A DNA stretch of 64,000 bases from Loigolactobacillus backii (GTDB lineage Bacteria > Bacillota > Bacilli > Lactobacillales > Lactobacillaceae), in contig NZ_RHNQ01000003.1 in the NCBI RefSeq assembly GCF_003946275.1, forward strand, positions 1 to 64,000, written 5' to 3'. Made by a program: the position numbers and the translations under genes. Of this stretch, positions 49,126 to 62,653 are shown piece by piece. The notes below the pieces were generated by a model. The model was given only the letters and a program-made list of their open reading frames with translations, was not told the DNA's origin and made no database searches. Position 1 is the first letter of the stretch. Each line of letters begins with the position of its first letter.

Positions 49126-49160
49126 TATCCGCAGATTAAGGCTACTTTAATTAAATTAAT

Positions 49161-49334
49161 GGGAGTGTGACAAAAGTCGGTTTTGGGTTTACTGCGTAAC
49201 GTAAGCTAATCCAATAACAGTACTATGGTTATTGGATTAGCTGTAGTTAGGCACGTAAATCCAGACTTTTGGCGCACGTTCTAGAGCAATATTCGGAAAC
49301 AGTAAGAGGCTAAGACTTTTTGTCCCAGCCTCAT
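49161..49334 (+). repeat. Palindromic GACAAAAGTC repeat, long copy 1
   Basis: About 174 bases, nearly identical to the reverse complement of 56629-56801. Both ends carry GACAAAAGTC-type inverted sequences, and the centre is a strong hairpin (GCTAATCCAATAAC / GTTATTGGATTAGC). It lies between the CPBP gene and rex. The flanks may carry a decayed 13-bp duplication (8 of 13 positions match). Confidence 0.85.
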
Positions 49335-49347
49335 TAAATTTTGCGCA

Positions 49348-55607: not shown

Positions 55608-56138
55608 TTACAATCTATCCCGCAAACTTAACATATTGCGGTTTGTTCCCAGCCAATACACCAACAGAACTTGAATTGGCGTTAATATTAAGTCCTTTAA
55701 AATTCGGATGGGTAAAATCCCCCAAAATGGCGTTTTATAAAGAATTGTTAGCCACAATGTATTTAAAAAGACGTTAACGACAAGCATAATAATTAAGGTA
55801 GCCATAATAACCCGCCACCAACTCATGTTTTGCCGGTAAAAGAACACCCCATAAATGACGCCGCCTAAGAATGCCGAAATAGTAAAACCGACAAAATAGG
55901 TCCCCGAACCGCCAAGTATTAAGGTATTAACTAAATCACAAATCACCGCTGCTAGTCCTGCCCACCAGGGTCCAAACCACCAACCCATAATAAACGTGGC
56001 CAGAAAAACAAAATCCACCCGGACTGACCAAATTCCAAACACGGGAAACTTACCAAGCACTAATTGCAGTGCCATTAGTAGACCCAGAATCGCAATACTG
56101 CGCGCACTGAGCCGTTTACCTGTTAAAGCTACTTTCAA
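55608..56138 (-). CDS. folT: ECF transporter S component, FolT folate-specific family
   Basis: A 176-residue membrane protein with about six helices: ILGLLMALQLVLGKF, LATFIMGWWFGPWWAGLAAVICDLV, YFVGFTISAFLGGVIYGVFF and others. The pattern NTLWL and ILKDLILTPIQVLLVYWL matches FolT substrate-binding subunits, which work with shared EcfAA'T ATPase modules to import folates. GAGGAG is 8 bases before a TTG at 56138, so that start is chosen; ATG 56147 abuts the site. The upstream tetrahydrofolate riboswitch supports the substrate assignment independently. Confidence 0.9.
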   Translation of the reverse strand: MKVALTGKRLSARSIAILGLLMALQLVLGKFPVFGIWSVRVDFVFLATFIMGWWFGPWWAGLAAVICDLVNTLILGGSGTYFVGFTISAFLGGVIYGVFFYRQNMSWWRVIMATLIIMLVVNVFLNTLWLTILYKTPFWGILPIRILKDLILTPIQVLLVYWLGTNRNMLSLRDRL

Positions 56139-56203
56139 ACTGGACATCTCCTCTTGGAGTGCCACAAATATGAGATCGTGCATTTAGCTTTGTAGCCAAG
56201 TGT

Positions 56204-56265: not shown

Positions 56266-56366
56266 ATATGCGGCGAATGCGGCAAAGAAATCGCAACCAA
56301 TATCGGTTTTCGGGTGACGTTCACATTCCGTTCCGTCAGCACTTAACGCTCCTAGCCTACTCCGTT
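56266..56366 (-). promoter_or_regulatory. Tetrahydrofolate (THF) riboswitch upstream of folT
   Basis: On the minus strand the leader has CGGAGTAG, GCGTTAAGTG (exact match to the conserved THF core), a TGACG/CGTCA hairpin whose loop GGAATG can pair with CATTC in GCCGCATTCGCC (the family pseudoknot), and a conserved CCGAA preceding an AACC/GGTT hairpin. These are the hallmarks of the folT-associated THF aptamer. Ligand binding should lower FolT production when folate is plentiful. Confidence 0.85.
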
Positions 56367-56414: not shown

Positions 56415-56592
56415 CTAGTTAGGCGAAGTTTTTTAATTATTGTTAAAAAAAAATGAGAAAAAGCTTGGCGAACTCTGATTAAAATCACGGTTTAATTTCA
56501 TTTTCGTTCCTTATTATCAAGAATGTAACCAAAACAAACCAAACCTTTTTCATTTTTCGACTCTTTTTCGTAACTGAAAAGAGACTCTCCCC

Positions 56593-56627
56593 AGACCATC
56601 TTCTTCCCCGAAGATGGTCTTTTTTTA
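56593..56627 (+). terminator. Orphan intrinsic terminator
   Basis: AGACCATCTTC and GAAGATGGTCT form an 11-base perfect stem with a 6-base loop and TTTTTTT tail on the plus strand. No plus-strand gene precedes it within this region, so it may end a short untranslated RNA or be read-through control for ansA. Confidence 0.85.
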
Positions 56628-56813
56628 AATGAGGCTGGGACAAAAGTCCTAGCCTCTTACTGTTTCTGAACATTGCTCTAGAATGTGCGCCAAAAGTCTG
56701 GATTTACGTGCCTAACTACAGCTAATCCAATAACCATAGTACGGTTATTGGATTAGCTTACGTTACGCAGTAAACCCAAAACCGACTTTTGTCACACTCC
56801 CTTTTTTTAAATG
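56619..56813 (-). mobile_element. Palindromic GACAAAAGTC repeat, long copy 2, with 13-bp target duplication
   Basis: The repeat body (56629-56801) is the reverse complement of 49161-49334 with about six differences. CTTTTTTTAAATG occurs at 56619-56631 and again at 56801-56813, directly flanking the element. That is the mark of a target-site duplication; the target was the T-tail of the 56593 terminator. It encodes no protein and is MITE-like. Confidence 0.75.
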
Positions 56814-56861: not shown

Positions 56862-57836
56862 ATGAAAAAAATTCTAATTTTACACACCGGCGGCACCATT
56901 GCCATGTCCGAAAATGAAAGTGGCACCATCATTCCAGGGGCTTCCAACCCACTAATGGCCTACAATCAATTATTTGCTGGTCAATATGATGTTAGTTCTG
57001 AAGAGCTATTCAACCTTCCTTCGCCCCACATTACACCTAAAGAAATGTTACTGCTGAGTCAACGCATTAATCAGGCCGAACAGGCCGGGGTTGATGGTGT
57101 TGTCGTCACTCATGGCACAGATACTTTAGAAGAAACGGCCTATTTTTTGGATCTGACCTTGCCCAGTACCATTCCCGTGGTGATCACCGGTGCCATGCGT
57201 TCCTCCAACGAAATCGGTTCCGATGGTCTTTATAATTTGGAAAGCGCGGTAAAAACGGCCGCCGATGACGATGCCCGGGGTAAAGGCGTTCTCGTCGTAA
57301 TGAACGATGAAGTTCACACCGCCCGTTTTGTGACGAAAACGCACACTACTAACGTTGCGACCTTCCGTACCCCTACTTTTGGCCCAATTGGTATTATGGA
57401 GAAAAATGGCGTTAAATTTTTTCAAGAACTAACGGAACAACAGGCTTGCCCAATTACCCACGTCATTGATCACGTTTACCTATTAAAGGCATACGCCGGT
57501 ATGGATGATCACTTACTAACAATGTTAGATCTGCCTAGTACCAATGGTTTAGTGATCGAAGCAACTGGTGCTGGCAACCTGCCACCACAAACCTTGCCTG
57601 CCCTTGCTAAACTCATTGCCCATAAGATTCCCATTATTTTAGTGTCCCGCTGTTTCAACGGCGTTGCGGAACCTGTCTACGGCTATGAGGGTGGTGGCCA
57701 GCAACTACAAAAAATGGGGGTTATTTTTTGCCAAGGCCTCAATGGTCAAAAAGCACGTATTAAATTACTAGTTGGCCTATCAGCCGGTAAAAACGGCCAA
57801 CAATTAGCCACTTATATGCAAGACGCCATTTCTTAA
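56862..57836 (+). CDS. L-asparaginase, type I (AnsA-like)
   Basis: Hydrolyses L-asparagine to aspartate and ammonia. The 324-residue protein has the first catalytic motif ILHTGGTIAMSE (about 5-16) with the nucleophilic threonine and the second motif VVVTHGTDTLEETAYFL, plus the PVVITGAMRSSNEIGSDG segment. There is no signal peptide, so it is cytoplasmic. AGGAGG precedes the ATG by 6 bases. It is next to the mobile repeat, which lies just upstream of its presumed promoter, so the insertion could alter its expression. Confidence 0.94.
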   Translation: MKKILILHTGGTIAMSENESGTIIPGASNPLMAYNQLFAGQYDVSSEELFNLPSPHITPKEMLLLSQRINQAEQAGVDGVVVTHGTDTLEETAYFLDLTLPSTIPVVITGAMRSSNEIGSDGLYNLESAVKTAADDDARGKGVLVVMNDEVHTARFVTKTHTTNVATFRTPTFGPIGIMEKNGVKFFQELTEQQACPITHVIDHVYLLKAYAGMDDHLLTMLDLPSTNGLVIEATGAGNLPPQTLPALAKLIAHKIPIILVSRCFNGVAEPVYGYEGGGQQLQKMGVIFCQGLNGQKARIKLLVGLSAGKNGQQLATYMQDAIS

Positions 57837-62564: not shown

Positions 62565-62653
62565 GGGAGTGGGACAAAAGTCAATTTTGGCGCACGTTCT
62601 AGAATAATGATCGAAAACAATAAGGCGACCAGGACAAAAGTCTTGGCCGCTTT
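62565..62653 (+). repeat. Short copy of the GACAAAAGTC repeat
   Basis: The sequence has the start GGGAGTGGGACAAAAGTC, then jumps to the TTTTGGCGCACGTTCTAGA part of the long copies and the terminal palindrome GACCAGGACAAAAGTCTTGG. The central hairpin of about 100 bases is missing. It lies between two lipoprotein genes and can form a terminator-like stem. Confidence 0.75.

Follow-up and report, generated by a model that had tools for sequence, protein, structure and literature searches.

A repeated non-coding element in the Loigolactobacillus window

The window, by which the whole 64,000-nucleotide stretch of DNA analysed here is meant, belongs to a Loigolactobacillus genome of 2.57 Mb in 143 contigs, and its closest named relative over this region, at about 94% DNA identity, is L. 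iwatensis JCM 18838. A sequence-only reading had described two near-identical, oppositely oriented copies of a non-coding repeat at 49161-49334 (copy 1) and 56629-56801 (copy 2), and both were found at these positions, sharing 96.6% identity. The following features were delimited.

49150..49157, + strand: ATTAAATT, left member of the 8-bp direct-repeat pair flanking copy 1
49161..49332, - strand: element copy 1, in the opposite orientation to copy 2
49333..49340, + strand: ATTAAATT, right member of the 8-bp direct-repeat pair flanking copy 1
56593..56627, + strand: pre-existing intrinsic terminator whose T-tail is the target of copy 2
56619..56631, + strand: left copy of the 13-bp target duplication CTTTTTTTAAATG, the terminator T-tail; single at the L. 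iwatensis empty site
56632..56800, + strand: element copy 2, borders +/-1-2 bases
56631..56656, + strand: left terminal hairpin of copy 2, GAGGCTGGGACAAAAGTCCTAGCCTC, from the fold, two-sided changes among 42 copies and identity to IS1182-family terminal repeats
56657..56684, + strand: linker of copy 2, consensus ..TTCCGAACATTACTCTAGAACGTGC, kept across Lactobacillales
56685..56797, + strand: long imperfect palindrome of copy 2, from the fold and a 75.6% self-match on the opposite strand (element positions 57-169)
56720-56758, + strand: central hairpin inside the long palindrome, from the fold
56801..56813, + strand: right copy of the 13-bp target duplication CTTTTTTTAAATG, from the window sequence and the L. 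iwatensis empty site
about 62565..62652, - strand: third family member, a short form with both ends present, GGGGGAGTGGGACAAAAGTC...GACCAGGACAAAAGTCTTGGCCGC

The borders of copy 2 were set from the empty site in L. iwatensis (L060) together with the register common to the other copies with direct repeats, which reduced the 173 bases originally quoted to 169-170 without target bases. The perfect 13-bp repeat reported on both sides of this copy was verified, as was its location in the T-tail of the terminator, the stem of which has 11 pairs; because one base per side is ambiguous between element and target, the duplication amounts to 11-13 bp. Around copy 1, the eight in-register matches counted among 13 flanking positions proved to be a single run of eight, ATTAAATT. 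As had been stated, the repeat has no ORF (none of 80 aa or more was found). The element terminates in GAGGCTGGGACAAAAGTC and GGGAGTGKGACAAAAGTC, and the terminal inverted repeats of the consensus (GAGGCTGGGACAAAAGTC / GGGAGTGGGACAAAAGTC) agree at 13 of their first 16 bases; in copy 2, the left repeat is formed by the first 18 bases of the left hairpin and the right one by the end of the palindrome, GACTTTTGTCACACTCC, which reads GGAGTGTGACAAAAGTC inwards. The third copy carries an internal deletion, through which the central palindrome is gone.

The surroundings of copy 2 contain further non-coding features. An asparaginase gene (56862-57836) follows the non-coding stretch 56474-56627, which shows 81-94% conservation in four further Loigolactobacillus species and ends in the terminator; copy 2 now lies between this stretch and the gene. 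Part of it (56533-56625) weakly resembles the Enterococcus sRNA Ref84 (33.4 bits, E 0.017; gathering score 52), and the conserved region may be a leader, a small RNA or an attenuator. A THF riboswitch (56269-56366, - strand, 58 bits) lies ahead of a folate-transporter-like gene (55608-56183), and it was the only match when the window was searched against Rfam 15, none being found over the element above gathering score. Weak matches on the element (mir-3923, EF0408_EF0409) scored far below their gathering scores and were ignored, and seven loci with relatives in other genera returned only a tRNA from Rfam 15.

Copy number and distribution in Lactobacillales

At least 40 copies of the element are present in the window's own genome (40 places were scored in detail from 169 first-look candidates), where exact GGGACAAAAGTC sites number 68, against none for the reversed control pattern. 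A similar copy number was found in the sister genome G007, which is probably L. iwatensis, and the copies occupy differing places in the two sister species. Traces of the element were seen in one congener (G003), and a search of five further Loigolactobacillus genomes gave no matches. With another element copy as the query, matches were obtained in 73 of 295 Lactobacillales genomes, representing 19 of 75 genera. The order-wide match usually covered the first 30-70 bases, namely the hairpin GAGGCTGGGACAAAAGTCCCAGCCTC and part of the linker, and the loci fetched from other genera were mostly complete elements, about 170-220 bp long and built alike from a left hairpin, a linker and a long stem ending in GACTTTTGTCCCACTCTC or GATTTCTGTCCCACTCTC, the middle differing by group. 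One genome, streptococcal by inference from its plasmid matches, has about 70 end-pattern matches per strand, and most of these pair, among the matches listed, as near-uniform 175-bp copies in both orientations. Similarity to the right part of this streptococcal version, at 79-81%, was also seen in two staphylococcal phage records. No match was found in plasmids searched directly with the window element.

Empty sites and direct repeats

Copy 2 is a real insertion. At the orthologous site, L. iwatensis carries GAAGATGGTCTTTTTTTAAATGTAAAATAAAG, the terminator there being followed by exactly one CTTTTTTTAAATG and no element, and the terminator is likewise kept in four other Loigolactobacillus species from which the element is absent. 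A second clean insertion was found in the sister genome, where copy L185 has CTAATTAA on both sides, an 8-bp repeat, and the empty site in the window's own genome, TCTAATTAAGCG, has one CTAATTAA. The proposal that the repeat is mobile and MITE-like, with inverted ends and moving without a gene of its own, is borne out by these two empty sites. The copy-1 site in L. iwatensis also lacks the element and contains about 30 bp of other DNA instead, and at copy L002 two CAGACAAA enclose the element together with a neighbouring element of the IS110 family, for which the sister has a single CAGGCAAA.

Target duplication is not the rule for this element. Direct repeats of 8 bp or longer were present at 4 of 55 independent sites (L001, L004, L020 and L185), against 0.08 expected when left and right flanks were paired at random, in a test that is blind to very short duplications; three of the four sites, with repeats of 8-13 bp, share an exactly identical register. 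The expectation that a 12-13 bp duplication is typical of the copies was therefore not upheld, most copies lacking one, an outcome that the sequence-only reading had itself named as contrary to its view. This scarcity argues against a canonical MITE but not against an IS1272-like one, as IS1272-type elements also lack duplications.

Element ends and the search for a transposase

The termini of IS1272 were read from an annotated Staphylococcus epidermidis plasmid as GAGTCTGGGACATAAA and GAGTCCGGGACATAAA, and the left end of the element agrees with the IS1272 terminal repeat at 13 of 16 bases (GAGTCTGGGACATAAA versus GAGGCTGGGACAAAAG). Searching Lactobacillales with the IS1272 transposase yielded two relatives with closer ends. 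In genome G095, an IS1182-type transposase gene whose product is 39% identical to that of IS1272 lies between perfect GAGGCTGGGACAAAACCT repeats, in an insertion sequence of about 1.76 kb with three stops in the transposase frame, and the left end of the repeat matches at 15/16; genome G185 holds a multicopy insertion sequence of IS1182 type with GAGGCTGGGACAAAAG at both ends, each matching at 16/16. In the shuffled-flank control the best agreement was 12/16, reached in 2 of 300 shuffles and never exceeded. The right end of the element agrees at 14/16 with GGGAGTGGGACAGAAAT, the likely alternative end of TnSha1. With a transposase query protein (L281) that scores above the NCBIfam IS1182 cut-off, IS1182-type transposases were found in 129 of 395 genomes in a wider search, and, of 32 loci inspected, the majority are bounded by comparable ends, for example GAGGCTGGGAAAAAAC or GAGAGTGGGACAATAG. 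It is the ends of the element, and not its interior, that suggest descent from the IS1182 family. Judged by their sequences, the recurrent order-wide repeats are a Lactobacillales-wide family with IS1182-type ends, and the mention of similar repeats in lactobacilli, offered with the first description, was a sound lead that extends to this family. A likely identity is offered for very common intergenic repeats of streptococci and other Lactobacillales that found no Rfam match here.

No IS1182-type transposase was detected in the window's own genome using PF13751, NF033551, the IS1272 transposase or a Lactobacillales transposase, or in the sister genome using NF033551 or the IS1272 transposase. 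The six copies most similar to the window copy share at least 96-97% identity with it, and the enzyme was therefore presumably present when they moved; as it is absent from the present assemblies, it has probably been lost or is carried by strains or replicons outside the sample. Several candidates were set aside. The only inward-facing exact GGGACAAAAGTC pair noticed at a few kb distance in the own genome (C89:4320-7604) encloses ordinary genes and no transposase, and a weak IS1182 match in another Loigolactobacillus (L254) turned out to be IS5-like and was dropped. The IS110-family element beside copy L002 was rejected as a mobiliser, since its end simply abuts the repeat and the IS110 family is not known to make ends like those of the repeat.

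As a separate observation, CTTGACTAANCGTAGGAA was found within a few bases of the left or right end of the repeat at four loci in two genera (L002/L241 on G000:C111, L031 and L036 in the sister genome, and L260 in another genus). Because the ORFs neighbouring L002 contain the IS110-family transposase domains PF01548 and PF02371, CTTGACTAANCGTAGGAA is probably an IS110 end, and the ends of the repeat may serve as a target for an IS110 element.

The element shares with MITEs a short length (about 170 bp), the lack of a transposase gene, many dispersed copies, terminal inverted repeats and presence/absence polymorphism; target duplication at most copies and an autonomous partner sharing its ends within the genome were not found. 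With IS1272-like elements it has in common the terminal repeats of the family and insertion at hairpins that lose their tip or disappear altogether.

Hairpin replacement at orthologous sites

The commoner insertion signature is hairpin replacement, not duplication. When the flanks of copies were joined in silico and the orthologous place was looked up in the other of the two sister species, the sister genome often had an unrelated terminator hairpin exactly at the position of the element, the outer arms of the stem sometimes being left on both sides. The clearest example is the young copy L006 (96.5%), at which both flanks align to the edge of the element. In the sister, the 45-bp gap holds the upper portion of a single hairpin whose stem has about 27 pairs (TGGTACAACTAAAGTGGCCCGTA...TACGGGCCACTTTAGTTGTACCA); in the own genome the outer arms stay, with ATGGTACAACTAAA and its complement to either side of the element, which takes the position of the tip. 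Unrelated terminator-like hairpins also occupy the gaps of 44-53 bp at L051, L040 and L021, and the outer stem at L040 shows a paired change between species (GACGCAA/TTGCGTC versus GACACAA/TTGTGTC). At L003 and L053, a new element apparently occupies the position at which an older copy had its terminal hairpin. The flanks align close to the element at all of these sites. Similar hairpins were found at L019, L022, L173 and L184, which are less clean and have longer unaligned flanks; L019, L173 and L184, where these are large, were kept as weaker examples only. Hairpin replacement was not seen at L001, L185, L170, L005, L023 or L029.

Stem scores of 12-17 were obtained for 8 of 12 gaps, against a maximum of 9 in 100 shuffles per gap. 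As the control of random genomic DNA for these scores was mostly coding, the stronger argument lies in the exact position and the surviving arms. Inverted flank matches of at least 7 bp were found at 9 of 55 sites, with 2.6 expected. The suggestion that the repeat lands in terminator tails holds for copy 2, and two other young copies sit shortly past a T-tract, but more commonly the hairpin itself is replaced. That the element replaced the hairpin, and not the reverse, is indicated by the high identity of the L006 and L003 copies, short of proof for older sites, and some of the less clean examples could instead result from turnover of terminators at gene ends.

Proposed mechanism and alternative explanations

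The repeat is very probably a non-autonomous, MITE-like element with IS1182/IS1272-type ends, and is proposed to move as follows. An IS1182-family DDE transposase, acting in trans, would recognise the terminal inverted repeats and would often target extruded stem-loops such as intrinsic terminators. Joining within the stem or at its feet would remove the tip, whereas joining across ordinary duplex beside the hairpin, as at copy 2, would give an 8-13 bp duplication. The left hairpin and A/T-rich borders of the element could substitute for the lost terminator, so that insertions would be tolerated and would accumulate downstream of genes; that the element still terminates transcription is a plausible prediction. 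The published IS1272 model permits both deletion and duplication (PMC5678879). Against this explanation stand the negative transposase searches in the own and sister genomes and the fact that IS1272 lacks duplications, yet a few copies here have them.

A classical MITE of another insertion sequence family that makes 8-13 bp duplications (IS4-like, for example), with a preference for intergenic DNA and with later decay giving the appearance of replacement, would account for the four sites with direct repeats, three of them in the same register, and for the one terminator left unchanged beside copy 2. It is nevertheless unlikely, given that the ends match two IS1182-type elements at 15-16 of 16 bases, that 8-bp direct repeats are absent at 51 of the 55 sites, and that at L006 the matching flanks reach right to the ends of the element and are otherwise intact, a state hardly to be expected from later decay.

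The fold and the gene context bear on a second alternative, in which a structured non-coding RNA or terminator cassette is selected for RNA function and has spread by recombination or replication slippage between hairpins, without a transposase. Folded as single-stranded DNA, the element has a z-score of -8.7 relative to 200 dinucleotide shuffles; two-sided changes among 42 copies keep 12 of 38 stem pairs; hairpin-only and loop-inverted forms exist; and, of the 52 copies that could be classified by simple ORF calling (17 in convergent, 29 in tandem and 6 in divergent contexts), 46 have the 3' end of one or more genes as a neighbour, all of which would suit such a cassette. The two-sided changes, however, are expected if the ends have to remain inverted repeats or if the hairpin is functional, and no Rfam family scored above threshold. 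Copies occur in both orientations at unrelated sites, and two insertions, exact and with a duplicated target, bear the mark of a cut-and-join enzyme, which makes transposase-free spread very unlikely. With regard to the loop of the left hairpin, it is AAAA in most copies and TTTT in several (L019, L021, L022, L026, G000), as if the hairpin had been inverted in place, and L018 and its ortholog have opposite loop orientations at the same site.

The sister-genome orthologs of L009, L014, L018, L020 and L026 are shortened forms at the same insertion site, with either the central palindrome lost or only the left hairpin left. These forms point to slippage inside the palindrome, and terminators of ordinary appearance may originate from them. 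They show that decay happens, but the least probable alternative, that sister terminators replaced the element and that the pattern reflects element loss only, conflicts with the 96-97% identity of the L006 and L003 copies to the window copy, which indicates recent insertion, and with the copy-2 terminator being common to four other species without the element.

Comparison with known systems

Literature searches with the literal sequence GGGACAAAAGTC returned unrelated papers only, and those with other literal end sequences returned the STAR paper, one primer and unrelated papers. No report of a hairpin-replacing MITE, or of this family in Lactobacillales, was found in the open-access literature, most subscription journals being outside the scope of the search. 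The pneumococcal repeat RUP duplicates TA and is tied to IS630-Spn1. The pneumococcal repeats BOX and RUP resemble the present element as short, high-copy intergenic repeats of Lactobacillales, and RUP is likewise thought to be mobile in trans (PMC2828477, PMC3049150). The STAR loci of Staphylococcus aureus (PMC3532100) differ in that STAR itself is a direct repeat. On S. epidermidis plasmid pAMT2 (L279, positions 1-60), the probable alternative TnSha1 end GGGAGTGGGACAGAAAT is close to the STAR 'start signature' GTGGGACAGAAATGAT. By such end likeness, the STAR border would be an IS1272-type end, and staphylococcal intergenic repeats may be IS1272-type MITE ends.

MITEPye1, an IS1182-type MITE of the alphaproteobacterium Paracoccus yeei, is by its description also non-coding and intergenic, with IS1182-family terminal repeats and a strong fold, and is thought to be mobilised in trans (PMC11578231). 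It differs in having 1-3 copies per chromosome and 4-bp direct repeats (PMC11578231), and is not known to replace hairpins.

IS1272 and TnSha1 (Furi et al. 2016, PMC4923244; Wan et al. 2017, PMC5678879) enter hairpins, many of them terminators and several confirmed as such, with partial deletion or replacement and no duplication. 'Stem-loop-replacing' is the published signature of IS1272, a member of the IS1182 family in Staphylococcus (PMC4923244; PMC5678879), and the present element shares with it similar terminal repeats, hairpin targets that are often terminators, and partial deletion or replacement of the target hairpin. IS1272, however, is about 1.9 kb long and carries a transposase, whereas the element described here is about 170 bp, has no gene and is present in at least 40 copies, a few of them with the 8-13 bp direct repeats that IS1272 lacks. 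IS1182-type MITEs and hairpin replacement are thus each known, while their combination, the copy number and the breadth look new.

A wider reading, tentative and somewhat short of probable, is that of a Lactobacillales-wide, perhaps also staphylococcal, superfamily of IS1182-type MITEs that swaps out intrinsic terminators, reaches tens of copies per genome in many species, and includes the STAR borders and similar unnamed intergenic repeats. If true, such a superfamily would act as a mobile terminator cassette, continually rewriting transcription units at their 3' ends. A quarter of the sampled Lactobacillales genomes share the end design of the element, which provides many natural experiments on how a transposase recognises a hairpin and on when deletion or flanking duplication results, and a concrete reason is offered for terminator differences at the same gene between close relatives. 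Stem-loop-replacing transposition has so far been described for one staphylococcal insertion sequence and its derivative (PMC4923244; PMC5678879); here, a small non-coding element repeats the IS1272 signature between two sister species in which the old and the new states can both be read.
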